Below, in pieces: positions 6,980 to 26,617 of a stretch of 64,000 bases of DNA. Origin of the DNA: Candidatus Methanoperedens sp. Its GTDB lineage: Archaea; Halobacteriota; Methanosarcinia; Methanosarcinales; Methanoperedenaceae. Position numbers and translations under genes: made by a program. The DNA lies in the NCBI GenBank assembly GCA_026552975.1, contig JAPMTR010000064.1, positions 1-64,000 of the forward strand. Reading direction: 5' to 3'. The notes beneath the pieces were generated by a model that searched no databases, was not told the DNA's origin, and worked only from the letters and a program-made list of their open reading frames with translations. Position 1 is the stretch's first letter; every line of letters begins with the position of its first letter.

Positions 6980-7087
6980 AAGATCATTTCAACAATAATC
7001 TTTTTTATTATTATATCTCTATGATCAATGGTTTTTACGGAAAAATATGTTTTTTATTCATTCATAAAATGATATATGAATACTCAA

Positions 7088-7108: not shown

Positions 7109-7121
7109 CTTTTTAATACCC

Positions 7122-7142
7122 ACCCCTTTATTTCGTATGGAA
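7122..7142 (-). promoter_or_regulatory. ORB-like Orc1/Cdc6 binding motif 3
   Basis: ACCCC-TTTA-TTTC-GTA-TGGAA. Same orientation as motifs 1 and 2 and only 34 bases from motif 2, so the two could be occupied cooperatively. Confidence 0.7.
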
Positions 7143-7287
7143 GTTTTAAAAAAACAGATTTGATATTAAATTATAACATTAGAAAAAACTGATGTGTCTT
7201 ACTAAGACCGTTACAGTATATAAAACTTTCGAAAAAAGAATAATATACAAACGCAGTAAATAATTAGATTTTTTTCTATAAATATCA

Positions 7288-8167: not shown

Positions 8168-9672
8168 TCTGCGATCCTGACGATAGTATTTCTGGTCACA
8201 AGAAGATTAATAGAAGATTGATTTTTATTCTCCCTTACGAGAACTCCAAATATCTCAACGATATCACCATACCCGGCTTCTGATAGCTCCCTGTTATTTT
8301 CACTCATATGATAGACAGGCATGATCGCATAGCAGGGTTCACGCGCCGTGCCATCGCATATCTTGAAAACTAATATCTTTTCGTTTCCCAGATTTTCGGA
8401 CATTACAGAAGCGGCGACGTTAATATGCTTCTCAATATGCATTTTAAGGTTTGAAAGGGCCATAAATTTTCCCTTTGCATGGTAATTGTGTTTAGATATT
8501 CCATCCTTCCTTAATATTACATAAGAGAATTTCATATCAATGTTCATATACCTGTAAGAGTCCGCAGTATCAGCTATCCTCTTCATGAAATCCGGCGCAG
8601 AAATGTCCCCGAGCTCCCTGAAACTCCAGCAATTATTTCCAGTGCAGGTTCTGCCCCACATGAATGAACACGGGCCATAGACATAAAAACCATTCCTGAC
8701 AAGGGTTTGCTGGGTGATCCGGAGAGCCTTAGAATTATCAAGATCTGCTGGCTCAATAATGATCAATGTTGGATCCTTGCTGGATGAGGCTATCCTTTCA
8801 ACTACATTCGCACGTTCGGGCGGCGTGGACTTAAGCTCAGCAAGCACATTTGAAAAAACGATAAGATCGGCATCCTTAGGAATAGGCGCATTTTCGATAG
8901 ATGATCGGACAGGCTCATCCATAATGATATTAGAGCTGATATCTCCGCTTCCAGACAGGTAATTTTTGATAAGTTCCTTATAACATACTATATTTTCCAG
9001 CTCATTCTCAATAGATCCGAACCTGATACTCAACTTGACATCCATGTTATTCCTAGAATAAATGTCCTGGAGTTTCCTGAAAAAATCGATCGTGGAAAGA
9101 GAAATTGTCCCTGGCCCTGAACCAGCATCAATTATCTTCATTTTATTAAAAAGCAAACCGCTTTTGAATAATTCAAATAGAAGGCGCTGGTACTGGCAGA
9201 AATATACGGGAAAATGGTATAGCAGGTAGGAAACGATCCTTATTCTTGGATATACAGATCCCCCCTCTCCTTTCCAGTATTCTTCTTTTTGAGAAACTAT
9301 ATTCTCGCGTATAAGCCGACCCGTGTCACCTGTACTCCAGTTCTTCCCGAAGTTGTGTTCAATATATGAATTCACAAGTTTTTCGATACGCAAAGGCAAT
9401 CCCGGATGCTTTAAGACCTCTTCAAGTTCCTTCACGATTGCTTCGTCTGAAGGAAGTGTTGTTTTCACGATCTTTGAACATTTGTGGTCAGGGCTGCAAT
9501 AGAGATTCAAGTTGAAAAAATTCATTTTCAGTATCTCAAAGAGCTCTTTTTCTTTGTATCCCTTGCTCAGGTACTGGTTCATTTCAGATAATGAAAACTC
9601 AAGGCGTGAGGCAGCTAGGTATTTTGCGAGAGATAATATTTCAGATGTCATAGGCAGGGCGGATAAATTCAT
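8164..9672 (-). CDS. Rsm22/METTL17-like methyltransferase
   Basis: A 502-residue protein with a class I SAM-binding fold: motif I is IIDAGSGPGTISL near residue 180, and DLIVFSNVLAEL follows. After the fold lies a Cys-rich segment CSFMWGRTCTGNNCWSFRE that matches the cysteine motif of the Rsm22/METTL17 family, where it binds an iron-sulfur cluster. A C-terminal OB-like region follows. Family members associate with the small ribosomal subunit; the methylation target here is unknown. An extra pair, CSPDHKC near residue 58, could also bind metal. The gene is convergent with the p27-like gene (4-base overlap) and divergent from the Lon-like gene. Confidence 0.75.
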   Translation of the reverse strand: MNLSALPMTSEILSLAKYLAASRLEFSLSEMNQYLSKGYKEKELFEILKMNFFNLNLYCSPDHKCSKIVKTTLPSDEAIVKELEEVLKHPGLPLRIEKLVNSYIEHNFGKNWSTGDTGRLIRENIVSQKEEYWKGEGGSVYPRIRIVSYLLYHFPVYFCQYQRLLFELFKSGLLFNKMKIIDAGSGPGTISLSTIDFFRKLQDIYSRNNMDVKLSIRFGSIENELENIVCYKELIKNYLSGSGDISSNIIMDEPVRSSIENAPIPKDADLIVFSNVLAELKSTPPERANVVERIASSSKDPTLIIIEPADLDNSKALRITQQTLVRNGFYVYGPCSFMWGRTCTGNNCWSFRELGDISAPDFMKRIADTADSYRYMNIDMKFSYVILRKDGISKHNYHAKGKFMALSNLKMHIEKHINVAASVMSENLGNEKILVFKICDGTAREPCYAIMPVYHMSENNRELSEAGYGDIVEIFGVLVRENKNQSSINLLVTRNTIVRIAD

Positions 9673-9759: not shown

Positions 9760-11634
9760 ATGATGAGGAAATTACATTTTTTAATATTGACTTGCATAAT
9801 ACTTTTAGTATTTAATCCTTTTATTGGTGCCAACGCTCTTGAAGATGGTGTTTCTATTCCCCTTGTCGCGGATAAGCTCACAGGGGACGGTGAAGAAGGT
9901 GCCCTCCTTGGAGCCCAGGTGATCGTTGTAAATGGGACAGGCCATGTTTTTGTGGACACGAATCCTTATACACAGGTCGATCTGCAGGGTTCGGCAAGAC
10001 TGGCAGCTATGGTAGCCTCAGATGTGCTTGGAGTAGATGAAAAGACATATGATTTCTATTATATTATCGATATAAGCTCTCCCATCATTGGAGGACCCTC
10101 GGCAGGAGCCGCCCTGACCGTGGCGACAATCGCAGCCATAAATAAATGGACATTAAAACCAAATGTTGTTATGACGGGAATGATAAATCCTGACGAATCC
10201 ATAGGACCGGTGGGTGGCATCCCTTACAAACTTGAGGCAGCAGCTTCGAAAAATTACACCCTTTTCCTGGTTCCAGAAGGCCAGACCACAGTAACCATAA
10301 CAAAATCCACATCATATTCAAAAGGTACCCAAATAATAATTGGGGACAGTGAGGAAGAGGTAGATGTTGTTGAACTCGGCAAAAAACTAAATGTGACGGT
10401 CAAGGAAGTAAGTACGATACAGGATGCGATCCTGGCATTTACAGATCATGAGATAACAAAACCAAAATATAAAGGTACGATCCTGACCACTCAATACATG
10501 GATCTGCTGAAACCACTTGCAAAGAATCTTAAAGATGAATCCGGGAACATGTATAAAGAATTGATCTCATCAGGGTCAAAAATGCAATTAACAGATCCTG
10601 CAAAGGAGATCCTGGACAGGGCAGATAAGATGTATGAGGACAAAAAATATTATGCTGCTACATCCTTATATTTCAATTCAATGTACACGATGCGCTTTGC
10701 GCAGTGGAAAGAAGGATATGATAAATCTTCAAACAAAGAACAATATCTTACTGAAATCGCAAATAGAGTTGAAAAGCAGATAAACGCATCTGAGAGTGAC
10801 CTTTCGAATTTTACCATGCATGGGATAACAGATGTTGAGGCCACGGGAGCAGCAGAGTCAAGGATAACAGTAGCAAGAATGAGGCTTGATGAAGCGAAGA
10901 AAAATAATAATACGGACGAAAAGATCTCAGGAATGGCATTTGCGAATGAAAGGGCAAGAACAGCTCAATGGTGGCTCATACTATCAACTCCCAGCGGTAA
11001 AGTCGTACCTGAAAAGATCCTGAAAGACCGGGCAGGATGGTACCTGAGCCAGGCTCAATCAATCAATACTTACATGATAACATTGATCACAGAGAGCGGT
11101 TCCCATCCAGAGATTATGGGGGGCGCAGCAGATGACATTGCCAGCGCCCAGAAGGAAATGGAACGCGGTTATTATGTCGGCTCGATATTTGATTCCCTGC
11201 AGGCGACTACAAAAGACAGCACAGCAATAGGATTAATGGGGCAGATCGAACCTCAAAAGAAGGTGGATCAGAGTTATGAAGCTGCAAAAGGGGCGATAAA
11301 CGAAGCCCGTCTTGCAGGAATAGAACCAACGCTCGCAGTGAGCGCATTCGAGTACGGGGAAACAATGACAAATCCCTATGATAAAATATCCCAGTATTCC
11401 TACGCAAAAATGATCGCCAAGACCTCAATAGTACTCAATTCCCATTCCATACCTTCAAATGAAACAGCGGTCAAGCCGGTCATTACTCCTTACGTTTCTG
11501 AACCCTTTAATGAATTAATACCTACTCCTGCGGCGACGACAAAGAGATCAAGGACAAAAATAGAAGTGCCAGGTTTTGAGGGCATAGCTGCGATCGCAAT
11601 TTTGCTGGTTGTTAGAAGGATAAGGAAGAAATAA
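9760..11634 (+). CDS. Secreted S16 (Lon-type) protease domain protein with PGF-CTERM anchor
   Basis: A signal peptide (residues 1-26) precedes a stand-alone Lon-type proteolytic domain without an ATPase. The catalytic serine is S114 in GGPSAGAALT and the lysine K157 in GPVGGIPYKLEAA. A long, mostly helical region (about 230-590) follows. The C-terminus has PGF at about 604-606, a hydrophobic stretch and a basic end (RRIRKK): a PGF-CTERM signal, processed by archaeosortase A in other archaea to attach proteins to the membrane lipid. The likely site of action is the outer face of the membrane. AAGGT precedes the ATG; a second ATG is the next codon. Confidence 0.87.
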   Translation: MMRKLHFLILTCIILLVFNPFIGANALEDGVSIPLVADKLTGDGEEGALLGAQVIVVNGTGHVFVDTNPYTQVDLQGSARLAAMVASDVLGVDEKTYDFYYIIDISSPIIGGPSAGAALTVATIAAINKWTLKPNVVMTGMINPDESIGPVGGIPYKLEAAASKNYTLFLVPEGQTTVTITKSTSYSKGTQIIIGDSEEEVDVVELGKKLNVTVKEVSTIQDAILAFTDHEITKPKYKGTILTTQYMDLLKPLAKNLKDESGNMYKELISSGSKMQLTDPAKEILDRADKMYEDKKYYAATSLYFNSMYTMRFAQWKEGYDKSSNKEQYLTEIANRVEKQINASESDLSNFTMHGITDVEATGAAESRITVARMRLDEAKKNNNTDEKISGMAFANERARTAQWWLILSTPSGKVVPEKILKDRAGWYLSQAQSINTYMITLITESGSHPEIMGGAADDIASAQKEMERGYYVGSIFDSLQATTKDSTAIGLMGQIEPQKKVDQSYEAAKGAINEARLAGIEPTLAVSAFEYGETMTNPYDKISQYSYAKMIAKTSIVLNSHSIPSNETAVKPVITPYVSEPFNELIPTPAATTKRSRTKIEVPGFEGIAAIAILLVVRRIRKK

Positions 11635-11663: not shown

Positions 11664-12095
11664 ATGACAAATGAAGATGATAAAGAAATATTCTATTTCA
11701 ATTACACAAGCACTATCGCTCACGAATTAAAAAAAATCTTTCCGGATGATCTTGTCTCGGTAGTTGTTTTTGGCAGCGCAGCAAGAGGAGAAGCTAGAAT
11801 GAACGACAATATTGATGTTCTGATAGTGGTTGAGAAATTTGAAAAGGTTGGTCGGGAAAAAGTTATTGATTCTATTGAGGATAATCTAAAGATGTCAGAA
11901 GAATATTTTGATCTTGTAGAAAATGACCTTTCTACCAATATAAATCCATTGTGTCTTACGCAATCTGAAATTGAAAAGAATCCTTCTCTGATTAAGGATG
12001 TTATCCCGGATGGATTTATGATTTATGATACCGATGATTTTATGGAAGATAATTTGAGACCACCGAGAAAGAAACGTAAGAAGAGTAAGAAATGA
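11664..12095 (+). CDS. Nucleotidyltransferase-fold (MNT-like) protein, active site altered
   Basis: A 143-residue protein of the minimal nucleotidyltransferase superfamily, shown by GSAARGEARMNDNIDVLIV near residues 37-55. In active members the motif ends DxD; here the first Asp is Asn (NID), so metal-dependent nucleotidyl transfer may be weak or lost. The C-terminus is very basic (RKKRKKSKK), suggesting nucleic-acid or ribosome contact. It follows the Lon-like gene by 29 bases and precedes the SEC-C gene by 18 bases, so the three may form an operon. It could be an MntA-like antitoxin relative, but no HEPN partner is adjacent. Confidence 0.7.
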   Translation: MTNEDDKEIFYFNYTSTIAHELKKIFPDDLVSVVVFGSAARGEARMNDNIDVLIVVEKFEKVGREKVIDSIEDNLKMSEEYFDLVENDLSTNINPLCLTQSEIEKNPSLIKDVIPDGFMIYDTDDFMEDNLRPPRKKRKKSKK

Positions 12096-12113
12096 ATTAT
12101 TGAAGGAGTAAGA

Positions 12114-12755
12114 ATGGTAGAAAAATATTCCGATGATGAACTGAAAAAAACACTTGATAAGACTTACGAATGGGGTAAAGCTTTCAGTGAAAGCAAGTAT
12201 TTTCAAGATTTAACAGAAGAACAACAGCATGAGTCTGAATTCATAGTCCAGACTTTTACCGAATATATGTATTCTTATAATCTATTGATCCCTGAAGAAT
12301 GGGATGAAAGGGGACTGGAAGAATGTTGTCTTGATACACTGCCAAGAAAGATCACCGCAGATGAGTCGTATTACAAGTCAATTGCCCCTGTCCTTTCTTC
12401 TTTCTTCAGTTTTTTAGAAAAAAAGGAACTATTGAGAAATGCATCGAAGCTTGCGAAAAAAGTTAAAAAAATCGACAAACAAATCGTAAAGAATTCATCT
12501 GACTCCAGCAGTTGGGGAATGGCAAAAACGATGTTCATGAATGCAAAGAAAGCCGGTGTCGATATAGAAAATGAAGATGAATTAAAAAAATTCATGTATC
12601 TTTTTAACCAGCAACAACTTGCGAATAAAAAAAAAGCTGATACAATTATTTCTTTGCCTGCCTCTAATCTCAAGAAAGAGAAGATTGGAAGAAATGATCA
12701 ATGTCCATGCGGCAGTGGAAAGAAATACAAGAAATGCTGTGGGAGAAATGAGTAG
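12114..12755 (+). CDS. SEC-C motif zinc-binding protein of unknown function
   Basis: A 213-residue helical, charged protein. Its last 22 residues form a classic SEC-C zinc motif ([19 protein letters not shown]) with the CxC...CC ligands. SEC-C tails occur on SecA and on many uncharacterised proteins, where they mediate protein or ribosome binding. The N-terminal 190 residues match nothing I recognise. GAAGGAGT lies a few bases before the ATG. Its position 18 bases after the altered nucleotidyltransferase suggests the two act together. Confidence 0.7.
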
Positions 12756-12849
12756 CTTATGAAATAAGTAAGGCGACTGGGGTAATTTCGTGAACTTTTT
12801 GCCACAGAATCATAGCTTTTATTTGGTAGAAAGTAGAAAGTAGATAAAT

Positions 12850-13113
12850 ATGGCTGAGAACATAGGTGTTAAAATAAGTTCAGATACGAAAATCATTCTT
12901 GATACGATGTATCAACAATTACGCAGCAGCGGGATTAAAATTACAGAAAAAAAGATCCTTGACATTCTCATCACCAATACAGATGTGACAACTATAAAAA
13001 AATATTTGAAAAAAGAAGATAATACCGCCCTCCAGATGTTGAAAAAACCTGGACATTGGGGAGTTGCAGATTCTTCTGAAGATATAGATCGTTATCTTTA
13101 TGGAAATCCATGA
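12850..13113 (+). CDS. Putative antitoxin of a VapBC-like pair
   Basis: An 87-residue protein directly upstream of, and overlapping by four bases (ATGA), a PIN-domain toxin gene. The N-terminal 50 residues (KISSDTKIILDTMYQQLRSSG) resemble a ribbon-helix-helix or short helical DNA-binding segment. The C-terminal tail (GHWGVADSSEDIDRYLYGNP) is the kind of segment that plugs a PIN active site. The antitoxin assignment rests mainly on gene order and overlap. Short direct repeats (GTAGAAA) just before the start may be operator or leader sequence. Confidence 0.6.
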   Translation: MAENIGVKISSDTKIILDTMYQQLRSSGIKITEKKILDILITNTDVTTIKKYLKKEDNTALQMLKKPGHWGVADSSEDIDRYLYGNP

Positions 13114-13514
13114 GCCTTCTTATTGATACTTCTGCGCTTGTCTCTGCCAGAAATGCTGATGATACAAACCATAATAAAGCGCTTGATGTCATGATAAGGG
13201 CATTAAAAGGTGAATTTGGCAAATTGTATGTCAGCGATTATATTTTCGATGAGGCAGTAACTATAGCTTATATCAGGACTGGTAATAAAAAGTTTGCGAA
13301 TGATATAGGCAGGTTCGCAAGAACTAAACCTATCGTATTTCGTTTCATTGAGCCGATCGATTTTGAAAAGGCATGGGAAATTTATCTTCAATTTCAAGAC
13401 AAGAATTTTAGTTTCACGGATTGTACGAATATTGCACTTATGGAAAGGCATGGTATTGATACGCTTTTCACTTATGATTCAGAATTTAATGGGATCGTAA
13501 GCTTAATAGGCTAA
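13110..13514 (+). CDS. vapC: PIN-domain ribonuclease, VapC-like toxin
   Basis: A 134-residue PIN-domain protein. The first acidic residue is in LLIDTSALVSARN (D6), a conserved Glu lies in SDYIFDEAVTIAY, and the last acidic cluster is FSFTDCTNIALMERHGIDTLFTYDSEF. The set agrees with a metal-dependent PIN nuclease. VapC toxins cut tRNA or rRNA and are neutralised by the partner encoded just upstream; the ATGA overlap indicates coupled translation. The target here is unknown. Confidence 0.82.
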   Translation: MSLLIDTSALVSARNADDTNHNKALDVMIRALKGEFGKLYVSDYIFDEAVTIAYIRTGNKKFANDIGRFARTKPIVFRFIEPIDFEKAWEIYLQFQDKNFSFTDCTNIALMERHGIDTLFTYDSEFNGIVSLIG

Positions 13515-13603: not shown

Positions 13604-16600
13604 TCACATAAAATCCGCCAGCCCCATCTGCTTCACCTTATCGCTCTGAAACAGAGATCTCATCTCGATCTCAAGCAACTCAAGCCTCTGCTTTGTATAA
13701 GGTCGCACATGATACTCATCCGCGATCCGAAGGGAGGTCTCAAGATACTTCCTCACAGAGCCCTCATGCACCGTAAGCACGATATTCCCCCCGCATTTCG
13801 GACATGACCCACGAAGAGGCGGGCGCCTGTACTTGGCACCGCATTTAGTGCACCGCACCTTCTGTTTTGAAAATGAGCGAAGGTTCCCGACAAGGTCGGG
13901 AAGGAAATGTGAATTTATGACCCTCTCAGCTACATCCTCCGGGTCAACAGCTTTTATTTTACGGGCAAGCCCAAGCTGTGCTTCCATTTTTTCGATCATT
14001 GTCCCCAGGGTCTTGTAGGCGCTGTTCCTGGGGCCTGCCGCGATATTGGTTGTATCATGCGTAAAGCCAAAACCCTCATACTGCGCCGGTGTTCCAAGCC
14101 TTCCACTTACCATATCCATGATCTTGACAAGGTCTTTGGGATTCGTATATGCCAGGGTCGCTTCATAAAATTCAAGCGGATACTGGAACCTGACATCCAC
14201 GTTATGCGCTTCCTTATCAACTTCATTCGGATCGATGCGCGATGTCAGAACAAGCGGTGCGTCCATCTGCCCGCCGCGCCTGTCGGGAAGATATGAACGT
14301 GAGAAGTTGAGGAGCCCGTCCATCAGCAGCATAACGCAGTCTTCGTCACCATCGCAGTTCCTTCGTTTTGCAGCATGGAAAAATGGATGTGCATAGCCCA
14401 CAGATGCATTTGTGAATCCCACAAGGCGCCCCAGCACTCCTGCCGATGTATGCGGAGCAAGCCCAATAACCAGTTCTCCGATAAGATCATTTATCTTTTC
14501 CAGATGATAATAGGATTCGACTTTATAATATTTGACCAGGAGATCATCAATGAACCGGGCGGTCTTGAGCAGATATTCGCCACAATCCTTTGAGACAACG
14601 ATATCCTGCACTTTAAGTTCAAGGATCTGGTTCTCATCGACCAGGGGATTTCCATAAGTGTCATTGACATAACCAAGTTCTTTAAGTTTAGAAACTGTAA
14701 CGCCGATCTCCTTTGGTTTTATGTGGGTAAGCGGCATATCCGACAGGTCATACCTGACAGTTCCGTCCTTGAACATCACTATGTCATGTTTAGCTCGAAG
14801 CGCCCCCTTTTCAAGCGGTTCAGGCGTCTTGTTCTTTGACATAAGTCCAAGCACGCATTTTATTTCAAGAGTGTCTCTCTCCCCAATGTTATTGAGAGCG
14901 AGGGCAACCTCGGATTTAAAATCAATATCCATTTCAGTGACACAGTTTGTCACTTTATTGCATTTCGGACATACGGGTTTGTTGACCTCTATTCCACATG
15001 ATTCACATTTCAAAAGCGGTAGAGTGAATTTTCCGCATGAGCACCTGTTCTTGAATGTCCGTATCTTGCAGAAAGAACATATACGCTCTCCGATCTCTAC
15101 TTTTATCGTGCCAACTTTTCCTTTCTGGATGGTCAAACCCGTCCTTAGATCGTTGTTTCTTCCATTCCCATCATCTTCCTCGACGTATTCCTTTGCATTC
15201 TGGAGCGACCTTCGCTTTCCGCCTGCATCCCCGATCGGAAAAAGCACATGCGGAGCGGGTTTCATTTCGCGTTTATCGGATTTTTCTGGCCGCCCCATCC
15301 TTGCCCCAATTCTTATGGGGGCGCGGGCATGGATGGTCATTCCGCTCACTTTCAAGAGCGTATCCATGATATTTGCTTCTGGAGTAGACCATGTTTTTTT
15401 GAGGGTTTTATCGATCCCAAGACACGTCATCAGAGGAAGCGGTTCTTCAATGATTATCTGTTTCTCGCGCACAATATGGGGAACGAGAAGCACTTCGAGA
15501 ATATCTTTTACCTTCTCATCCACCGGGAATGATAATTTTTCCGCATATTTCCCGTTTTTCTGGACATAATCGGCGAGAAGTGAATAATCATCAGTTGAAA
15601 TATCATGCCACAGGTATGTGTATTTCGGATGCAGTGGCACATTGTATTTCCGGGATAGAGCTAGCGCCTTTTCCTGGTCAGGATCTTTGAGGTCACTTTG
15701 CTCTTTTAGCTCTTTTATTGAGGTTTTTGCCGCAAGTTCCTGTATCCACCATTCATAGCAATATGACGAAGGCACAAGAGGGTGGTTATTCTCAAGAAAA
15801 TCCCCAAAATTGATCAAGATCTCCCCGATATCAAGGATCTTCTGGACAGATGGCCTCAATTTCAAAGCTTCTGCCTCAGTATCGATCCTTAAAACATCCC
15901 CATTGAACAGGCGAACCGTCGGTCCTTCCAGTGTATCAACAGGCCCCATAGCTGCTGCTTTTCCGGGTCGTTCTACTTTTAGCTGGGTTCCTGCTGCGAT
16001 GAAATCATCCATCATTACCATTGTGGCGGGGCTTGTCCCGGCAGCGGCAAAACTCGTATTCCTGCCCCTGCCGTATCTGAGCCGAAAGCCTCCAGGCCGT
16101 GAAGGATATGAAAACACAGGCCGACCTGCGATCAAGTCCTGGAGATATTTGTCCTTTGGTTTTAATTGTGAGGATGGATCATCGCTTTTGACCGTGACCA
16201 CGAATTTTTCAAGCCAGTCCCATCCTTCAAGTTTAAGCTTATCTACATGCTTTTTCACTTTTGGCGCTTTGAGGGCGATCCCTTCAGCAATAACAAGCGC
16301 CATGCCGCCGCGTATCCTGTTCGTTTCGATCCGTGCAAGGTCTCGCCGTCCTTCAACTTCAGCTTCCTCTGTTGGTTCACCGTCTATGCATATCGGGCAG
16401 TTCCTGACGATGAGGCGGATCTCATCATCTGAGGGAAGATACTGCAAATTCGCAACGCGCCTGTAGGCTGTGATCTCTTCCACGTACCGCTCAACTTCTT
16501 CTGGTCGCGGCACAAATCTTGCGATACCAAGGTTTGCACGTACATAATCTGCAGCAAGAACGGACAGTGCCTGTGCAGTGCCGCCCGCGCTTCGTATCGG

Positions 16601-17035
16601 GCCTGCATAATAGATCCTGATATAATCGGTGCCATCATCGTTTTTAGCAAGATCTATCTTGGCGATACCCTCTATCGGAGCAGCAACTACTCCTTCTGTG
16701 AGGACTGCCATTGCAACTCTAACAGCGGCTTCGATGGCATCTTTGTTAGAATCAAATTGTTGTATCTCTCCTTTTGCCACACAGATCGCTACCTGGAGGG
16801 CGGCTTCTTCACGCGACATGGTGGTTTCAAGTTCCCTGAGCTTCTTTGCCACGCCTTCGATGTTAAGAAGCTTCTCGACCCTGTCAGCAAGGTCTTTTGC
16901 TATCGGTATCTCACTCGATGGTGTGGGGTCGGCGCCGTTTGCGCGGGCGCGGTTGGCTAACTCAATGGCGTTGTTAAGTTCCTGTTCGAGGGTGTTGAAA
17001 TAGGCGAGCATCGTCTCGCTGGCTGCGAATTTCAT
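13604..17035 (-). CDS. polC: DNA polymerase D large subunit DP2
   Basis: Catalytic subunit of the archaeal replicative polymerase PolD, which works with the DP1 exonuclease subunit (not in this window). The active-site motif NCDGDED lies near residue 892, followed by [23 protein letters not shown] multi-cysteine zinc region spans about 650-700, and a second, CTKC...CPKC, lies near 1058-1080. The C-terminus KQMGLADFM fits a PCNA-interacting box (QxxLxxF). At 1143 residues with no interruption, there is no intein. The start is ATG at 17035. Confidence 0.97.
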
Positions 17036-17127: not shown

Positions 17128-17193
17128 CACCGCAAAGAATAACTCATCTGTGTTCAGATTAACAAATCTGCGTTCATCTGCGTTCATCTGCGG
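17128..17193 (+). repeat. Tandem CATCTGCGTT repeats
   Basis: Short units related to CATCTGCGTT, including two perfect copies at about 17166-17186, followed by ATCTGCGGTTT. They resemble the CGCAGATAAACGCAGAT units at 17421-17445 in opposite orientation, so both belong to one modular repeat family. No plausible protein is encoded; the long minus-strand reading frame is a by-product of the repeat. Confidence 0.6.
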
Positions 17194-17267
17194 TTTGTTT
17201 TTTCGGTTTCTATTGTTAAATGAAATGGATATTGACCGCGGATGGACACAGAATACGGGTGGGATGC

Positions 17268-17532
17268 AATAGAACACGGATTGCGCGGATGACGCGGATG
17301 CGAACGGATACGGGTTAATCCGCGGAATTCTTATTCCTCTTTTGAATTCATTAATTTTAGAAAATAGTTTAATATGAATTCCCCCGGCTCTTTCGCTCAA
17401 TGAAACGAATATTAGTTGGAGATAAACGCAGATAAACGCAGATGGAATACGATGGAACACGGATTGCACGGATGCATAAGTATCCGTGAATATCCGCGCA
17501 ATCCGCGTCATCCGCGTCATCCGTGTTCTATT
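17268..17532. repeat. Modular inverted-repeat element (MITE-like or REP-like), 265 bp
   Basis: The left end AATAGAACACGGAT (17268-17281) is exactly inverted at the right end (ATCCGTGTTCTATT, 17519-17532). Each end continues with shuffled copies of GCGCGGAT, GACGCGGAT and TGCACGGAT. An inner pair (17455-17473 with 17510-17528) can also fold into a hairpin. There is no transposase and no credible ORF. A related element with end AATAGAACGCGGAT is at 56981. The 538-base gap between polC and hepT (17036-17573) contains only this and the tandem repeats just described. Confidence 0.6.
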
Positions 17533-17573
17533 CAAACTTATTATTTCCATGGATTTCCTGAAAACTACAATTC

Positions 17574-17936
17574 TTAGCATCTTCCTTTATTGGACATCTT
17601 TTTTTCCAATATACGTTTGATCTCATCTTTTAACAACGGAAGATCATCTTTCAATATATACCAGACGATTTCCAGATTGACGCCAAAATAATGATGTATG
17701 AGCTTATCTCTTATGCCAGCCAGATCCTTCCATGGAATATCCGGATACTTTTCTTTAAAATCATCTGTTATGTTTTTTGCTGCTTCACCGATTATTTCAA
17801 AATTACGAATAACGGCATCTTGAGTCTTAAGATCTTCCAGAAATCCCCCATATTCCTTATCCTGGGAATATATTTCTAATCTCCGGGTAGCTTCGAAAAT
17901 ATCTTCCACTAATTCATCATTTCCTCTTTTAGACAT
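17574..17936 (-). CDS. hepT: HepT-like HEPN ribonuclease toxin (DUF86)
   Basis: A 120-residue HEPN-domain protein of the DUF86/HepT family. The RNase motif R-x4-H-x-Y is complete: R76, H81 and Y83 (RDKLIHHYF). In characterised pairs the Tyr is AMPylated by the MntA antitoxin, which shuts off the RNase. The gene overlaps mntA by eight bases on the same strand and is the last gene of the Wadjet operon. Its stop codon is about 40 bases from the inverted-repeat element. Confidence 0.9.
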   Translation of the reverse strand: MSKRGNDELVEDIFEATRRLEIYSQDKEYGGFLEDLKTQDAVIRNFEIIGEAAKNITDDFKEKYPDIPWKDLAGIRDKLIHHYFGVNLEIVWYILKDDLPLLKDEIKRILEKKMSNKGRC

Positions 17937-18231
17937 ATACGATGCTCTTTTTAATATTTTCTGCGACTTCTTTTACCCTTATACTGTTGATACCGGCAGG
18001 GGTCAGGATATCCACTTTTTTACCTAATAGGTTTTCGATATATTCTGATAGTTCAAAAAATTTCAAGCCTATCGGTCTTTCAAATTCCACGATTAGATCA
18101 ACATCGCTGTCTTCTTTTTGGGCTTCTTTTGAATATGAACCGAATATGCCGATTCTTTTGACACCGAAAATGGTTTTTAAATGGGGTAATTCTCGTCTTA
18201 AAATTGCAATAATTTCTTTTCTTGTTATCAT
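17929..18231 (-). CDS. mntA: MntA-like nucleotidyltransferase antitoxin
   Basis: A 100-residue minimal nucleotidyltransferase. The active-site motif GSYSKEAQKEDSDVDLIVEF is intact, with GS, the DxD pair, and a third acidic strand KKVDILTP. The known role of such proteins is to AMPylate and inactivate the HepT toxin encoded next to them; here hepT overlaps by eight bases. The ATG lies 19 bases after the jetD stop codon with AGGAG in between, so this pair is very likely transcribed with the Wadjet genes. Confidence 0.9.
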   Translation of the reverse strand: MITRKEIIAILRRELPHLKTIFGVKRIGIFGSYSKEAQKEDSDVDLIVEFERPIGLKFFELSEYIENLLGKKVDILTPAGINSIRVKEVAENIKKSIVYV

Positions 18232-18250
18232 AATTTTTAGTATTCTCCTA

Positions 18251-19432
18251 TCATTCTATCCAAAAATATTCTATTTTTCTTACGACAAATGATTGATTGA
18301 TTTTTTCCTGCTCTAAGCGATTTTTCTTATTTAGATTCAATAAATGTTTAAAAAGTTGATTTTCTTCTACTGTTAAATTTGTAAGTTGATCAATATTTGT
18401 TTCAGTTCCAGTTACAGTGAAATCTTTAAATTCATTAAATGTTTCAAAATCCATTAATAAGGATTGAGTGTGGGGAAAATATAAACGTAATTGAGAAAGA
18501 ATCTGAAAACCATGGACATCTATGTCACCCCAATAAATTATTTGTATATCATTTAACCACAGGGCATCTTTCAATAATCCAAGCCCAAAACCCCTTCCAA
18601 AAATTGCTATTGAATTTTTCATATTAGGTAAAGTAAGAAAATTTAAAATATTAGAAAAATTAGTTTTATTTTCAAGAATAAAAACTCTTTTGCACCTAAT
18701 ATTGAGGGTATTAAAATCAGTTTGAGGAATACTTAAATCGGTTAATCCACTAAAATATTTTTCTGCAATTTCCTCATCCAGAATCCTTAACCTTATTAAA
18801 GGTTCATCAAATTTAAGGTTAAATCTTCGTTCAAATTGACTTTCATCTTTATTACTATACTCTTCAATGAGAAAATCTAACAGGCTTCTCAGTACAGCTT
18901 TATTTTCTTCTACAAATTTAGTGTGAAGTTCTAACGGCAGTTCTCGGATATAACGATTGGGTCGTGGATTCCTTATAAAGAATCCACAAATTTTTATCAA
19001 ATCGTTCCATTTTCCAAGATGTTCAATAACTTTTAAAGGATTTTGCATTATCCATTCATTAAGATTTGGAATGGTATTGGTGATTTGATTAATTGCCAGT
19101 TTAAATTCCTGATATTCTTTTTCTTTATTAATAAACTTCAAATAATCAATTTCATTTTCAAAATAAATCCTATTGGGGAATTGTTGCTCGCCGATTTTTT
19201 GATCTTTTCTTTTGATGAAATCTATCAAATAACCGTAGCCTAATTGTTCCTTGGATTTGTTCCTTAAATTTTGTATTTCTTTATGGATTTTTGAAAAATT
19301 TTCAAGTGTTTGAGTTGGTTCTATCTTGCCAAATCGAATATCTTTCGGAAAAAAGTTTTCTCCTTTAATAAAAGCAATCAAAAAATCTTTATACCAGCGC
19401 TCAGCTTGTTTTCTTATTTCTTCAGGCTTCAT
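18251..19432 (-). CDS. jetD: Wadjet JetD nuclease (DUF3322/DUF2220)
   Basis: Nuclease subunit of the type I Wadjet anti-plasmid system, which cleaves small circular DNA that the SMC-like JetABC motor has fully extruded. The N-terminal region (about 1-200) matches the DUF3322 layout. The C-terminal toprim-like DUF2220 domain has the acidic residue in FILENKTN (E254) and the GDID pair near 302-305 (YWGDIDVHGFQIL). The 393-residue length is normal. Its ATG overlaps the jetC stop (ATGA). Composition is AT-rich like the rest of the island. Confidence 0.92.
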   Translation of the reverse strand: MKPEEIRKQAERWYKDFLIAFIKGENFFPKDIRFGKIEPTQTLENFSKIHKEIQNLRNKSKEQLGYGYLIDFIKRKDQKIGEQQFPNRIYFENEIDYLKFINKEKEYQEFKLAINQITNTIPNLNEWIMQNPLKVIEHLGKWNDLIKICGFFIRNPRPNRYIRELPLELHTKFVEENKAVLRSLLDFLIEEYSNKDESQFERRFNLKFDEPLIRLRILDEEIAEKYFSGLTDLSIPQTDFNTLNIRCKRVFILENKTNFSNILNFLTLPNMKNSIAIFGRGFGLGLLKDALWLNDIQIIYWGDIDVHGFQILSQLRLYFPHTQSLLMDFETFNEFKDFTVTGTETNIDQLTNLTVEENQLFKHLLNLNKKNRLEQEKINQSFVVRKIEYFWIE

Positions 19433-22400
19433 AGTTGTTGAATTTCGCTTATGCTGAGTATTTTTTCTTTTCGTTCCTTCTCTGTCCGATATTCTTGGAT
19501 AGTTAAGTCCTTAATAAGAGAATTACTGCCGTTCTCATTTGAAACAAAATGGACATAATGGATGTAATTTTCTATTATATTGATTTTTTGCAGTGGCGTA
19601 ACAATAAGTAATTGCAGGTTTAATTTACTGAAAAGCTCTAAACCATATCGAGTGCTTTCATCAGAACCCCGCCCAAAAGCTTCATCAATAACCACAAATC
19701 TGAATGACCTTGATTTTGGTTGACTCCATTCTAAGCCAAACTTATAAGCCAATGCAGCGGCTAAAATTGTATAAGCTAATTTTTCTTTTTGTCCTCCTGA
19801 TTTACCGGACGAATCGCTATAATATTCTTTTTCTAAATCATCTTCTGATAATCGCTCACTTGCACTAAAGGAAAACCAGTACCTTACATCAGTCACTTTA
19901 TTGGTCCAGCTAATATCTGCTGATGTGCCGCTATTGAATCTATCTAAAATTAATTTGACTTTGTTGAATTTTTCTTCACTATAAAGATTTGTCTCTCCAA
20001 AGGTATTTTCTAGGCAATTAACCAATTTAATCTGAAAATCTCTAATCTCGATATCTGAAGTTTTATCTGCTAATAATTTAATATATGTTTTAGAATTATA
20101 TTCAATCTCATTCAGTGACTTATTAATTTGCTTTATCTTATCTTCAATATCTTTTGCAAAACTGTTTAACTGGTTTTTAAAAATAGCAATATCATTGATA
20201 GTCCCCTCATTAAGTAATTCTCTGAACTTCTTCTCATGCTTAGGTAAGTCTTCCTCCTCTATTTTCTTTAGATACTGCTTAAATTCATGAATAGATTTTA
20301 TTGAGGCATCTACTTCGGTAGTTTCCGCTCGATATTCATTTATGTATTTTTGCATTTTGGAAATGATACCATCGCGCAACTTTTCTTCTATTTTGTTTTT
20401 ATCTTCCTTACTATTTTCAATATTTCCCCGTGTTTCCTCCTGTAATTTATCTATGGTTTTAATTTTAAATTCCATTTCAGGTAAGAATTTTTCAATTTTT
20501 GAAAAATGAAATTTTTGTTCATCTTTCAAAATCTCAGTAATTTGGTTGCAATCTTTTAACTCTTCTTCATAAGTTGTAATAGTCTTATTAATTACTCCCA
20601 TCTCTGTCTGCTTTGAACCTTGTTGCTTGTCTTTGTCAGTAATTTCTTTTTGAATAATCTCTAACTGCTTTTTTAATGATTTTAATTGGTCCGAGCTTTT
20701 TTCCAATTCTTCTTTATCTTTTTTGAGCGTTTCAATCTCAACTGCTGCCTTTTTCCAATTTATCTCAGAATAATCTTTGAATTTTATTAAGTCATGGAGG
20801 TTAATTTCTCTTGTTTTCAATTGTTTGTGTATATTTTCGATGGATTTTTTTTGCTTCTCAATATCTTTTATTTGAGTTTCGAGATTTAATGATTCAATCT
20901 CAATTGCCTTTATCTTTTCCAGATTGCTCCAACCTAAAATATAATTTTTTCGTTCAAAAATGCTCTTGCGATCATCTTTTTCATGTTTAGCTTTTCCACC
21001 CTTAATCTGTCCATTTTTGGTGATAGCTTTTGACTCTTTTTGAAATTGTTCTATAGTGTCGCAACAATCATAATCAAAGATTTCGGTTAAATAATTCTCA
21101 AGCCAATCATAAAAAAGTGTGTCAGATTTAATTTCAATTTTTGTCAGTAGAGAATTTTCTGAACTTTCTTTTTGTGTCACATATTTTCTCGAATCGTGAA
21201 CTTTGAAGTATACTAATCGTCCTTTTAGATTGGTTTTATCAACATAGTTGCTCACTCGCCTATAATGTTCTTCAGGTACAAGTATGCTTAATCCGAAGTT
21301 GTGTAGAACCCTTTCAATTGCACCTTCCCATGTCTTTTCTTTATCATTTACCTTTACAAGTTCACCAACAAAGGCTAATTCGTTTTCTTTTAGTGATAAG
21401 TCTCTTAGAATCATCTCGCGAATTTGTAGATTTGGCAATGGGATTTGGGTTTTTCTTTGCCTTAATGATTCAAGTTCTGTTTTGTAAAGGTTATAGGTTT
21501 CCTTAAGTTTATTCAGATTGATTACTAAATTATCTCTATTTTCATTTAGTTCTAATACCTCTTTCTGTATCTTCTCTTTGATGTCGCTAGCTTGAGTTAG
21601 CGATTGGTAGAATATCTCCTCATTTATTACGTTTGGAAATTCTAATAAATCCAATAGTTTCAAATATTCATTTTCCTTTTTTAGTTTATCTTGTTTTATC
21701 CTTTCAAGTTCTTTGAGTTCATTTTCAATTAATTTAAGTCTTTGACTTTCTTTATTATTGTCAATCGCAATTTTTACTTCAGATTCCTTGTTTCTTAATC
21801 GCTCTAAATCAATCCTAATCTCTTCGATTTGATTGTTAATTACACCCAGTTTTTGATTAAAAGATTTTAATTCGTCATGTAAGAGTTTAGATTTATGAAT
21901 AGCAAAGTAGATTGGCAGCAAATTTAGGCAACTTTGCAATTCTTGGATTTCAATACTTGTTTTTTCGAATTCATTTGTTTCTTGTACTAAAGGCTGCAAC
22001 TGCTGCAATTGTTTTTTAGCTATTTGAACAGCTTCATACGATTTTGTGAGATTCTCGAAGTTCTTTTTTAATCCTTCAATTTTTTCTTTTACATCGAATT
22101 TATCCAGCATATGATTTCTCACAAACTCCGTCAGGTTTCCGACAGATTTTAATGAAACTGTTTGATAAAACAAGTCAAGTGCCTTTTCAGATTTAATGCC
22201 AAAAATATTTCTAAATTTAGAGCTGTAGTCACTGAAGTTCTCAAAAATTTTTGTGCCGGCTAAATTCTTTAATCTCTTCTTAAGTGGAAAAATATCTTTT
22301 TCTTCGTTTTTAACCTTGAAATGATCAATAATATTTAAATCCTGTTCAGAGACCACAAAAAACTTCTCTATTTTTTCGTTTCTGTTCCAAAAAACCTGGG

Positions 22401-22803
22401 CTAATGTGATTTTTTGATTGTAGCCTTCATTACAAAAATTAGTTACTAAAACAGTATAATCGCTTTCACTTCTTAAAAATACAGGCTTAGAGGAGTTGTC
22501 TAGTTCATTTTTTCGATTTGTATACTCTCCCCGAACATATGAAAAAAGAGTTCTTTCTTTACCTTCTGCTCCAGCAGCTTTATTGTAAATAATTTTATGG
22601 TGTGGAACCAACATGGTAGTAATAGCGTCTACTAATGTTGATTTACCCGACCCAATATCACCAGTAAGCAAGGAATTGAAACCATAAGGCTCAATTTTCC
22701 ATATTTTTTTATCAAAAGTTCCCCAGTTAAACATTTCCAAGCGCTGTAGGCGAAAGCCTATCTGGGTTTTATCAGGTGTGAAATCAAGCAATAAGTTTTG
22801 CAT
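19429..22803 (-). CDS. jetC: Wadjet JetC SMC-like ATPase
   Basis: Motor of the type I Wadjet complex: a MukB/SMC-like ABC ATPase that extrudes DNA loops. Walker A (GDIGSGKST) lies at about 48-56, after RLEMFNWGTFD. Two long coiled coils flank a central hinge-like domain (about residues 480-600). The C-terminus has the signature SGKSGGQKEKLAY and Walker B FVVIDEAFGRGSDES. The 1124-residue length fits the family. The ATG at 22803 lies inside the end of jetB (20-base overlap) behind GAGGAG, indicating translational coupling. Confidence 0.95.
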   Translation of the reverse strand: MQNLLLDFTPDKTQIGFRLQRLEMFNWGTFDKKIWKIEPYGFNSLLTGDIGSGKSTLVDAITTMLVPHHKIIYNKAAGAEGKERTLFSYVRGEYTNRKNELDNSSKPVFLRSESDYTVLVTNFCNEGYNQKITLAQVFWNRNEKIEKFFVVSEQDLNIIDHFKVKNEEKDIFPLKKRLKNLAGTKIFENFSDYSSKFRNIFGIKSEKALDLFYQTVSLKSVGNLTEFVRNHMLDKFDVKEKIEGLKKNFENLTKSYEAVQIAKKQLQQLQPLVQETNEFEKTSIEIQELQSCLNLLPIYFAIHKSKLLHDELKSFNQKLGVINNQIEEIRIDLERLRNKESEVKIAIDNNKESQRLKLIENELKELERIKQDKLKKENEYLKLLDLLEFPNVINEEIFYQSLTQASDIKEKIQKEVLELNENRDNLVINLNKLKETYNLYKTELESLRQRKTQIPLPNLQIREMILRDLSLKENELAFVGELVKVNDKEKTWEGAIERVLHNFGLSILVPEEHYRRVSNYVDKTNLKGRLVYFKVHDSRKYVTQKESSENSLLTKIEIKSDTLFYDWLENYLTEIFDYDCCDTIEQFQKESKAITKNGQIKGGKAKHEKDDRKSIFERKNYILGWSNLEKIKAIEIESLNLETQIKDIEKQKKSIENIHKQLKTREINLHDLIKFKDYSEINWKKAAVEIETLKKDKEELEKSSDQLKSLKKQLEIIQKEITDKDKQQGSKQTEMGVINKTITTYEEELKDCNQITEILKDEQKFHFSKIEKFLPEMEFKIKTIDKLQEETRGNIENSKEDKNKIEEKLRDGIISKMQKYINEYRAETTEVDASIKSIHEFKQYLKKIEEEDLPKHEKKFRELLNEGTINDIAIFKNQLNSFAKDIEDKIKQINKSLNEIEYNSKTYIKLLADKTSDIEIRDFQIKLVNCLENTFGETNLYSEEKFNKVKLILDRFNSGTSADISWTNKVTDVRYWFSFSASERLSEDDLEKEYYSDSSGKSGGQKEKLAYTILAAALAYKFGLEWSQPKSRSFRFVVIDEAFGRGSDESTRYGLELFSKLNLQLLIVTPLQKINIIENYIHYVHFVSNENGSNSLIKDLTIQEYRTEKERKEKILSISEIQQL

Positions 22804-23365
22804 ACTCCTCCAATTTGTTTTTAACTTCTAGAAGTGTCTCAACCGGAACTTTAACTTTTAAAATTCGTTTCACTTCATATTTGCTTTCACTGTCATTGAG
22901 TTTCCTCAAAAATCCATATTTAACTAATTTATTAATGTTCTCATCTATATTGTCAATGAGTTTTACTTCATTGGTTTTGTCGGGCAGGAATATTCTAAGC
23001 ATTTCTTTGATTTCATCTTTATCTACTATCAGTCTGGTAGAATCTCCTTCAGTAGCATCAAATTCAATTATTTTTTCAACTAACAGGACGCAAAGTAAGG
23101 TTACAGGATAACTTAATTGCCTTTTCTCAATAAGATTTGGTAAATTAATTTCTTGCCCCTCATGAAATTGTTTCTGTTTTAAAAAAGCGAAACCCTCTGT
23201 TTCATAAATAAGAACATCTATCCCAATTACTTTAAAATATTCTTTTATCGGAACATGATATTTAATCAGGTTATCCCATAACTCTTTATCATCAATATAG
23301 ATTACACCTTGCAAGAGCTTTATAATTGCAGAGGCATAGGGATTCACAACATTAGTATCTGTCAT
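22784..23365 (-). CDS. jetB: Wadjet JetB kite-like subunit (DUF4194)
   Basis: A 193-residue protein of the DUF4194 family, the MukE/kite-like accessory subunit of type I Wadjet. Supporting signs: VVNPYASAIIKLLQGVIYIDD at the start, a winged-helix core with LLCVLLVEKIIEFDAT, and a C-terminal winged helix ending LLEVKNKLEEYAKL. It bridges JetC and JetA in characterised complexes. It begins 10 bases after jetA and overlaps jetC by 20 bases. Confidence 0.92.
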   Translation of the reverse strand: MTDTNVVNPYASAIIKLLQGVIYIDDKELWDNLIKYHVPIKEYFKVIGIDVLIYETEGFAFLKQKQFHEGQEINLPNLIEKRQLSYPVTLLCVLLVEKIIEFDATEGDSTRLIVDKDEIKEMLRIFLPDKTNEVKLIDNIDENINKLVKYGFLRKLNDSESKYEVKRILKVKVPVETLLEVKNKLEEYAKLIA

Positions 23366-23375
23366 TTATTCTCCA

Positions 23376-24812
23376 TTATTTGCAGAATATAATTTGAGGT
23401 ATTTTAATTTCAAAATATTTTTTAGTCTCTTTATTCGATATAATTATATTTTCGATTACTTCTTCATTAATATACGACTTATTACCCTTGGAAGCAATAC
23501 TATAATAAGTAATAATTTCAGATAGCCCTTTTTCTACTGGGTAGATTTCAGCTATTTGCTTTAATGTTATTTGAGTATTAAATTTAAGCAATTCTCGTAT
23601 TCTAATTCTTAATTCTTCTTGATCGATATACAACTGCTTATACAACACATCCATATTGATAGAATCTGAACAGCCCTCTTCCAACTCTTTATTTATAATT
23701 TCAGGGTTTTTAGGGACCTCGAACAGGCGGCGTTCCATTATGAGTTCAATTAAAGGACGATCATCAATAAATAAAAAATTCTTATTTTTTGGTAGATTGC
23801 CTTTTATTTGGATGGCAAGGGATTTGATTTCGCTAATAATTTCTATAGTTCGCTTGTTCTCAAGATAAGTTTTATTATCCAAATATCTTCTAACTTGCTC
23901 AATTAGTTGATGATTGGTTTTATTTACTTTATCTCCTGCATCTATTAAATTTACTTCAATTCTTTCTATGAAATCATCATGTTTGATATTTTGAATTTCA
24001 GGCAAATTACTCACAATTTTAATCAAATCATCAAGTTCATCTTGTTTTTTTTGGGACATTATAAATTCCCAAAATGCTTTGAAACTTCGTCCTTGATCAG
24101 TATCCGAAATAAAATCTTGATTTTTAAAAATATCTTCTAATAATTTTCCTTTTTTCAGATTGCTATTAACCTGTTTCTCTCTAACAGATCTAGCAAGTTC
24201 ACGAAAATTGGATTCAACTTCCCTAAAATCAGACAGCAGTTTGCGTGCAGTATCATATACATCAAAAAAGCGTTCTTTAATTTGTGTTTCATTTAGCTTT
24301 TCAATATTTCCAGATTGAATTTTTTCAATTTCTATCTCTATCTCATGTTTCTGTTTTTCCAATTCTTCCAGTCTTTTCTGAGGATCATCGGAGCTTTTGT
24401 AAACAATTTCCTTTAATATATCAAAAATTTTAAGTAGTCTTGATTCGGTACCTACAAACTCTTTCTTGTCTAAATCTTTTATCCATTCCAAAGCTTTTTC
24501 TGTTGCCGGTGTGAGTTCGAAGAATGATTCATCACTATTTGAGGTATAGTATTTTCTCAAAAAACTGTCATTTGACCATTTATCAAGATAATTTCGGGCT
24601 GTACCTGGATATGTGTTTTCCCCATAAATATGATTTAAATTATATAAATAATCTGAAAGGCTGGTTTTAAGTTCAGTATTTGAAATTACTATTTTGTTAT
24701 TCTTCTTAAATTCCTGATATAAAAAACTGAGGATAAGAGGAGCATTGTCTAATCTTAGAAGCTTAACTGTAGGATTATAATCTTTCAGGTACTTTATATT
24801 TTCGTAATCCAT
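23376..24812 (-). CDS. jetA: Wadjet JetA kleisin-like subunit (DUF3375)
   Basis: A 478-residue DUF3375 protein, the MukF/kleisin-like subunit of type I Wadjet. Family landmarks are plain: TVKLLRLDNAPLILSFLYQEF near the start, YLDKWSNDSFLRKYY, FELTPATEKALEWIKDL, FVGTESRLLKIFDIL, and LLSDFREVESNFRELARSVRE. It is the first gene of the operon. The AT-rich 140-base gap upstream must carry the promoter. JetA dimerises and links two SMC-like motors in known systems. Confidence 0.94.
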   Translation of the reverse strand: MDYENIKYLKDYNPTVKLLRLDNAPLILSFLYQEFKKNNKIVISNTELKTSLSDYLYNLNHIYGENTYPGTARNYLDKWSNDSFLRKYYTSNSDESFFELTPATEKALEWIKDLDKKEFVGTESRLLKIFDILKEIVYKSSDDPQKRLEELEKQKHEIEIEIEKIQSGNIEKLNETQIKERFFDVYDTARKLLSDFREVESNFRELARSVREKQVNSNLKKGKLLEDIFKNQDFISDTDQGRSFKAFWEFIMSQKKQDELDDLIKIVSNLPEIQNIKHDDFIERIEVNLIDAGDKVNKTNHQLIEQVRRYLDNKTYLENKRTIEIISEIKSLAIQIKGNLPKNKNFLFIDDRPLIELIMERRLFEVPKNPEIINKELEEGCSDSINMDVLYKQLYIDQEELRIRIRELLKFNTQITLKQIAEIYPVEKGLSEIITYYSIASKGNKSYINEEVIENIIISNKETKKYFEIKIPQIIFCK

Positions 24813-24935
24813 TCAAACATCTCGTTTACAAAACTATAGGTAATTTCCTATAAGGTGTTAATATCTAACTGTAGTAATTTAAGTTAATCGTTAAATTACT
24901 TTTGTCAAATCGTTTTTACTCATGTAATACCACCC

Positions 24936-24962
24936 CAAAAAAAGATGGGGCACTACTGCCCC
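24936..24962 (-). terminator. Terminator of the rpa operon with the stop codon in its loop
   Basis: Read on the minus strand, GGGGCA (24962-24957) and TGCCCC (24952-24947) form a 6-bp stem around the loop GTAG, followed by ATC and seven or eight Ts (24943-24936). The TAG stop codon of the RPA-associated gene is inside the loop. It separates the rpa operon from the Wadjet operon on the same strand. Confidence 0.75.
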
Positions 24963-25531
24963 CTCATCGACTCCACCGCCATCGAAACCATCGCCTTATA
25001 CTGCTCCACATCCGTAGAGTAATGCTCCCTCGCCTTCACAGCATCAGGTTCATTTCCGTTTAATTTAGCGATCCTCTTAGCAGTCAGGTTCGCGGTCTCA
25101 ACGACCCACCTGTCACGCGTTGCTGCATCCACGACATGCATGGACTCAGCCTTTATGGAAGCAAGAACATTTCCTTCTTTGGTCGTGAAGACCGTAGGCT
25201 TGCCGACAACTGCGATGAACTCAGGAGGCGCTGTTTTTGCAAGCACCTGAGCCGCTTCTTGCTGGTATTGCCCTGCTGTTACATAGAACGCGCCTGTTGG
25301 GTCAACGATACGACCGCGCCAGAAATCAGTCTCGTTTCCTATATTTTCGGTTTCCGTGAGCGTGCCAACGATGAAGACACGGTTGCATTTTGCTCCTGTC
25401 GGCGTAAGAAGAAACTGCTTCGGGAACTGTTCATCCTGTCCTTCTTTTGTCTGGAGATTTGATTCCTTAAGCTCTGCAGCAAACACGCGGTGTGCAACTT
25501 CGCGAACATATCCGGATCCATTTTCAGCCAT
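24953..25531 (-). CDS. RPA-associated protein RPAP (COG3390)
   Basis: A 192-residue protein with one OB-fold (about residues 40-130: FLLTPTGAKCNRVFIVGTLTETENIG...WRGRIVDPTGAFYVTAGQYQ). It is typical of the COG3390 RPA-associated proteins found beside archaeal RPA genes and thought to assemble with RPA in single-stranded DNA protection and repair. It starts two bases after the rpa stop. A terminator hairpin overlaps its own stop codon. Confidence 0.9.
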   Translation of the reverse strand: MAENGSGYVREVAHRVFAAELKESNLQTKEGQDEQFPKQFLLTPTGAKCNRVFIVGTLTETENIGNETDFWRGRIVDPTGAFYVTAGQYQQEAAQVLAKTAPPEFIAVVGKPTVFTTKEGNVLASIKAESMHVVDAATRDRWVVETANLTAKRIAKLNGNEPDAVKAREHYSTDVEQYKAMVSMAVESMRGQ

Positions 25532-25533
25532 AA

Positions 25534-26475
25534 TTACGCCTCCACTGCAAAAGGCATTGAAGTTGCTGCAAGTATCCTCGTGATGTCTTCTTCTATCGGT
25601 TTTACATCCGGTTTGATGGAATCTACCAGTATGAACCTGTCAAGTTTCTTTCCGGCAACCACATAGTAACGTCCCACGAGCATATTTTTCATAACATCAA
25701 GAACAACACCCTGGTCAAGCGCTTCTGTTGCCATTTCCTTTGCTTTATCAAGAGTGATACCGGTAAAAGCTTCGGTTATTTCCCTGTTCATCAAAATATC
25801 CTGCACCTTTTCGCCATCGTCAAGGACAGCTTTTATTCGCAAGTCATATTTCCCTTCAACTTTTCCGTGCTCGCCACATGCGCCTTTTATGAGAGCGCGG
25901 TTGCATTCAGGGCATCTTTTTATCAGACCAGAGCCGCTTTGCACATCCACGATAGCACCTGAGAATTCGGTAATGGTTGTGCCTACTTCGATATTTTCTG
26001 CGATCGGGATGATCTCGCTGGTTTTATTTAAACTGACACTAAATCGTTCCTGCCACAGCGAAGTTACCACATTCTTAAAAAGATAGCTTTTTCCTTCCTC
26101 GACCTGGGGAAGGTTCGCTTTTGACCATTTCTTGAATGCTATTGTTCCAGATTCATCGCCTAACAATCCAGCCTGGGAAAGAGATTCGTGATTTGCATCC
26201 CACAACTGGACTACTTTACAACGAAGAGTTATCCATTTTCCGTCTTCTTTGATATCGGATGCTTTTACCTGCGCTGTTTCCCGAGCTGTGAAAAAATCAG
26301 ACTTCGGGATATTGTGTTTCTTTAAAAAGTAATTTACAACATTGCGGCGAGCTTCTTCTGGCGGGACCTTGAATTTGTTTATCAACTGGTCAAGCTTTGT
26401 ATCGATTTCGCTCGTCTCTACCTTTACACCCAGTTCTAAGAATCGGGCTTCTATTTGTTTGGTTATTTCGTTCAT
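25534..26475 (-). CDS. rpa: Replication protein A (single-stranded DNA-binding)
   Basis: Single-stranded DNA-binding protein with two OB-folds (about 80-170 and 190-300) and a zinc-ribbon-like segment between them (RCPECNRALIKGACGEHGKVEG, with Cys-x2-Cys then Cys-His). It coats ssDNA in replication and repair. I take the ATG at 26475 as start, with GGAGG 13 bases upstream; an in-frame TTG at 26487 would add four residues but lies one base after the GGAGG. It forms a two-gene operon with RPAP and is near recJ-like, polC and XPF-like genes. Confidence 0.9.
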   Translation of the reverse strand: MNEITKQIEARFLELGVKVETSEIDTKLDQLINKFKVPPEEARRNVVNYFLKKHNIPKSDFFTARETAQVKASDIKEDGKWITLRCKVVQLWDANHESLSQAGLLGDESGTIAFKKWSKANLPQVEEGKSYLFKNVVTSLWQERFSVSLNKTSEIIPIAENIEVGTTITEFSGAIVDVQSGSGLIKRCPECNRALIKGACGEHGKVEGKYDLRIKAVLDDGEKVQDILMNREITEAFTGITLDKAKEMATEALDQGVVLDVMKNMLVGRYYVVAGKKLDRFILVDSIKPDVKPIEEDITRILAATSMPFAVEA

Positions 26476-26617
26476 AATTTTTCTCAAGCCTCCGGTTTAA
26501 TTTTTGTGTTTTAAGAGGCAACCCTACTATATCCTGCGAGAATATAAACCTTATGAGAGCGGGGTGAAAGTAATGCCATAATCAGCATAATCTGTTGATG
26601 TCCCGATAACGCTAAAT

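Follow-up and report, generated by a model that had tools for sequence, protein, structure and literature searches.

The six genes at positions 17574-24812 of the window, a stretch of 64,000 nucleotides from a 2.57-Mb archaeal genome of Candidatus Methanoperedens (G000), are probably the current cargo of a defense hotspot bounded by core genes, in which an autonomous Wadjet was inserted in front of a toxin-antitoxin (TA) tail already resident at the site. The parts are ordinary, since Wadjet, HEPN/MNT TA pairs, and core defense hotspots are all known kinds; it is the instance in ANME archaea that is new. The initial annotation described the row as type I jetABCD joined to an MntA/HepT pair. 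All six genes are intact minus-strand open reading frames, and an ORF check confirmed every coordinate along with the spacing: jetA and jetB are 10 nt apart, jetB and jetC overlap by 20 nt, jetC and jetD overlap in ATGA, 19 nt that include AGGAG separate jetD from mntA, and mntA and hepT overlap by 8 nt. This spacing by itself suggests a single transcript for all six genes. GC content is 28-31% in the jet genes and 34-35% in the TA genes; the RPA genes and polC on either side have 43-51% (Table 1).

Table 1. Features of the hotspot and its flanks (positions in the window).
Feature	Coordinates	Strand	Evidence or remark
RPA (OB-fold replication protein A), conserved left flank	25534..26487	-	Found at the retrieved hotspot loci of the genus, next to the OB-fold gene
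RPA-associated OB-fold gene, immediate left flank	24953..25531	-	Cargo begins past its stop
Terminator-like hairpin and T-run, end of RPA operon	24947..24962	-	6 pairs, 5 of them G-C; consensus match only
Inverted repeat TATAGG-AAATTA-CCTATA 5' of jetA, candidate operator/promoter element	24835..24852	.	Sequence
JetA (kleisin, DUF3375)	23376..24812	-	Pfam; PADLOC JetA1, E 8e-175
JetB (KITE/MukE-like, DUF4194)	22784..23365	-	Pfam; PADLOC JetB1, 7e-69
JetC (SMC ATPase)	19429..22803	-	PADLOC JetC1, E 0; PDB 8as8, 8dk2 JetC
JetD (Toprim nuclease)	18251..19432	-	PADLOC JetD1, 2e-154; JetD_C/DUF3322; PDB 8b7f MksG, 7til and 8q72 JetD
MntA-like minimal nucleotidyltransferase (antitoxin)	17929..18231	-	PF01909; GSx10DxD; PDB 1wot
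HepT-like HEPN ribonuclease (toxin)	17574..17936	-	PF01934, E 8e-30; Rx4HxY
Dispersed palindromic repeat, right cargo boundary	17268..17545	.	Repeat DNA of CGCGGATTGCGCGGAT / GCAGATGAACGCAGATG types extends over 17166 to 17545; matched 48 times across the G000 genome
PolC, DNA polymerase II large subunit (DP2), right core flank in G000 and G018	13604..17035	-	95% identical in G018

The gene identities held up as well, with PADLOC and Pfam in agreement. The best PADLOC match of each of the four jet genes, which stand in the order jetA-jetB-jetC-jetD, is a type I model, and every Pfam match in the row (DUF3375, DUF4194, JetD_C/DUF3322, NTP_transf_2, HepT-like) exceeds its gathering cut-off. The motifs that had been called intact were all found so by direct reading. 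JetC carries a GDIGSGKS Walker A motif, an SGGQ signature, and an IDEAF Walker B motif, and its match to the solved JetC proteins 8as8 and 8dk2 spans the full length; JetD carries E254 and GDID at 302-305, with E254, D303, and D305 invariant across six homologues, and aligns with 7til and 8b7f. No relatives of JetD were found in viral contigs; its named relatives belong to Candidatus Methanoperedens, which identifies the genus of the 31 genomes compared below. Wadjet is a shape-sensing nuclease of small circular DNA that cuts circles smaller than about 100 kb (PMC10586767), and as judged from its sequence the G000 jetABCD is most likely an ordinary, autonomous type I Wadjet directed against plasmids, whose proteins would extrude and cut small circular DNA alone. 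In the two remaining proteins we read GS31-32-x10-D43xD45 (MntA) and R76-x4-H81-x-Y83 (HepT). GSx10DxD together with Rx4HxY is the published signature of the class I HEPN/MNT TA systems (PMC7641770), and the two proteins adjoin and match PF01909 and PF01934. Because they fall below the NCBIfam equivalog cut-offs (38.1 bits for MntA and 46.4 for HepT, against 60), we name them MntA/HepT-like, by Pfam and motif. MntA matches the solved structure 1wot; a solved relative of HepT was not found at E 0.001. MntA would be expected to AMPylate HepT and so silence its RNase, the pair acting autonomously.

The left boundary of the site is a core one. The RPA-associated OB-fold gene was matched in 31 of 31 genomes of the genus (in G025 by a weaker homologue only); most of these genomes are fragmented MAGs in which some cargo ends are unseen. 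To the right, polC and the same palindromic repeat adjoin the site in G000 and its sister G018; the right-hand neighbors in other clades are different. In G018 an orthologous copy of the repeat precedes polC, so that this genome shares the RPA flank, the repeat, and polC with G000 and differs in the intervening cargo alone. We recognized no integrase beside the site, and the sole tRNA of the window lies 17 kb away. The inverted repeat 5' of jetA was considered as an operator and rejected, as conservation lends it no support: at six further loci, the DNA before jetA does not contain it. A sigma-70 promoter scan, built on a bacterial consensus, is uninformative for an archaeal host. On the opposite side of polC, at 11664-13514 on the plus strand, a second AT-rich cluster comprises genes for a 143-aa minimal nucleotidyltransferase and a SEC-C-motif-like protein, plus a VapBC-like pair in which an antitoxin-like gene of 87 aa overlaps one that is PIN-domain-like; TA-like genes thus flank polC on both sides.

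What occupies the site varies from genome to genome. AT-rich cargo of differing content lies directly 3' of the RPA-associated gene in many members of the genus, and a few have little or none. Wadjet is present in G000, G007, G017, G002, and G008 (truncated by the contig end); the other occupants are CBASS (G005), a ThsA-type macro protein with an ART (G028), an OLD-like ATPase with a PIN protein (G011), an XPD/DinG-like helicase (G010), a metallo-beta-lactamase-fold (MBL) protein with HEPN/MNT genes (G018), and a DUF1848 protein (G020). The 3' end of the cargo holds MNT/HEPN or Fic genes whether or not Wadjet is present, and cargo without Wadjet usually ends in MNT/HEPN genes. Varied defense cargo beside a flank found in every genome marks this as a core defense hotspot, one that would take up exchangeable defense cassettes 3' of the RPA operon. 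Some of the cargo deserves mention in its own right. The CBASS-like pair in G005 (L038, 11832-13917, minus strand) combines a CD-NTase that has a weak SMODS match with a Cap15 receptor. In G028 (L051, 1835-3076, minus strand) the ThsA-type macro protein adjoins a HYD1-type ADP-ribosyltransferase, possibly an unstudied NAD/ADP-ribose defense pair. A protein of 370-380 aa followed by a DUF1848 protein occurs in two genomes at different sites (L082, 34-2192; L032, flipped, 5051-7170) and is a candidate defense pair; the L032 copy has no Pfam family.

The joint between Wadjet and the TA pair is not peculiar to G000. Among the genomes of the genus, jetD-mntA-hepT is found once more, in G007, where a 7-nt overlap takes the place of the 19-nt gap. 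The two joints look independent when the sequences around them are compared. The two Wadjets are only 45% identical. Compared with the RPA-site Wadjets of other genomes, that of G000 is 45-47% identical; its closest relatives (76-77%) are in G014 and G024, at another site and with no TA. The JetC proteins of G007 and G002 share 92% identity, where core genes of the two reach 77-78%, yet the genes that follow differ, the order being jetD-mntA-hepT-MNT132 in G007 and jetD-MNT132-HEPN169 in G002. In G017 a Fic gene, apparently frameshifted, accompanies Wadjet. The differing genes after jetD in these three genomes indicate that the association of Wadjet with TA genes is modular. Beyond the hotspot, MNT/HEPN genes follow jetD in none of 11 type I Wadjets, seven of them in this archaeal order and four on bacterial plasmids; a genome-wide contig scan with the JetD alignment gave only 7 loci, and the bacterial survey accordingly drew on plasmids. 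The comparison with three of four at the hotspot gives a Fisher p of 0.009, calculated by hand on loci that are not independent.

These observations bear on the proposal that HepT is a back-up abortive effector, freed when Wadjet is overwhelmed or blocked, the six genes forming one two-layer system. A selected partnership would look like the tight G000 operon, with its 19-nt gap and intact motifs, and like its recurrence in G007. The state of HepT could also hint at a link to Wadjet: it is intact at both Wadjet-MntA loci and absent beside MntA at the three hotspot loci that carry the same MntA family without Wadjet (G001, G028, G011). Against a partnership stand the occurrence of MntA at the site without Wadjet and of Wadjet without MntA, the different TAs on Wadjets that are 92% identical, the count of zero among 11 Wadjets elsewhere, and the differing histories of Wadjet and MntA described below. 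We regard a partnership as quite unlikely, and for the release of HepT upon defeat of Wadjet we found no positive evidence. What survives of the original "joined" description is the operon-like layout; a conserved module dedicated to Wadjet would call for a conserved junction and concordant histories, and the joints are non-homologous and the histories discordant. The solitary MntA genes lie at L048 7237-7759, L051 (flipped) 8126-8920, and L052 (flipped) 9964-10266. In L048 a UPF0175-like reading frame stands in place of the HepT start, and its overlap with mntA is again 8 nt.

The history of MntA follows the site. Of the five closest relatives of the G000 protein, all 70-74% identical to it, four are at the hotspot (G007, G001, G028, G011). 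The fifth, in an MntA-HepT pair on contig 28 of G024, is away from the RPA site, 39 nt past an XPD-like helicase named from sequence alone, which indicates that the pair can move. MntA identity correlates with RPA identity (rho 0.80, exact permutation p 0.010), but JetC identity shows no such correlation (rho 0.03, p 0.31), in small samples of five to six MntA copies and six full Wadjets. On this comparison the TA pair is tied to the site and not to Wadjet. MntA-like genes are enriched at the hotspots about 30-fold (7 observed vs 0.21 expected, p 3e-9), and five remain when the two Wadjet loci are removed (p 3e-6). Chance adjacency, in which Wadjet and MntA/HepT were inserted independently, had no site history in common, and became random neighbors in an AT-rich region, might be entertained given how common such genes are (5 HepT-like and 12 NTP_transf_2 matches in G000); in view of the enrichment, and of the recurrence of the site with cargo in many genomes, we consider it extremely improbable.

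Addiction was the other function suggested by the initial annotation, and it fares differently according to what is thought to be retained. In its Wadjet-specific form, MntA/HepT kills cells that lose the operon and so stabilizes the Wadjet genes. A HEPN/MNT pair does stabilize a plasmid in E. coli (PMC4621449), and the two systems probably share a transcription unit, to judge by the spacing. Yet MntA tracks the site rather than Wadjet, it stayed while Wadjet was swapped or lost, and HepT has been lost at three hotspot loci; we therefore hold this form of the idea to be improbable. Addiction to the hotspot is another matter. The plasmid stabilization makes addiction to the locus plausible, and it may help to keep the hotspot in place, even if the loss of HepT beside MntA in G001, G028, and G011 indicates that such addiction can be escaped.

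We favor, then, a sequence of events in which MntA/HepT was already resident when Wadjet was inserted upstream of it. The pair would be a tail cassette of the site, apparently without a conserved promoter of its own. No shared promoter-like block was found 5' of mntA across the five contexts compared, and the DNA there is non-homologous among them, except for a HEPN169 end common to G028 and G011. In all six copies the start of mntA is no more than about 70 nt from a co-directional gene that precedes it. The lack of a conserved upstream region, taken with this placement, suggests that the tail is probably transcribed by read-through from the promoter of whichever defense payload sits upstream. 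In a broader scheme, which we think unlikely, MNT/HEPN pairs in Methanoperedens would form a tail cassette of general use, lacking a promoter and selected for co-transcription with any hotspot defense system (Wadjet, CBASS, OLD-like, or helicase); whatever the payload, they would provide the same abortive back-up or guard the locus.

The findings carry some wider implications. They place a defined core defense hotspot in an anaerobic methane-oxidizing archaeal genus, offer the gene after RPA as a marker for locating further defense systems, and caution that a tight row of six genes can be a mosaic. Among the papers searched, none mentions both Methanoperedens and Wadjet, and those that name Wadjet and HepT, judged by their titles and abstracts, do not appear to describe such an operon. 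The elements known from Methanoperedens, circular plasmids of some 156 and 192 kb (PMC9674854) and the linear Borgs, lie outside the range of Wadjet, which cuts circles of less than about 100 kb (PMC10586767). That Wadjet helps select for large-plasmid or linear elements in these archaea is speculation.

Each component can be set beside a known system. The jet genes resemble type I Wadjet (JetABCD) in gene order, in the four protein families, in the SMC ATPase motifs, and in the JetD Toprim residues; the G000 operon differs in being archaeal and AT-rich and in having a HEPN/MNT pair 19 nt past jetD. That pair resembles the class I HEPN/MNT (MntA/HepT, type VII) TA systems in its two Pfam families and both motifs, and in an antitoxin gene that comes first and overlaps the toxin gene. 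It differs in scoring below the equivalog cut-offs and in being, here, the 3' tail of defense operons with an upstream region that is not conserved. The site as a whole is most like the core defense hotspots cDHS1/2 of Pseudomonas aeruginosa (PMC10250203), which likewise have a core-gene flank and low-GC cargo and at which diverse defense systems are swapped at one site with no single mobile element seen. Unlike cDHS1/2, the Methanoperedens site is in an ANME archaeon, its right flank varies by clade, and each cargo amounts to a single system a few kilobases long, most often with MNT/HEPN or Fic genes at the end.
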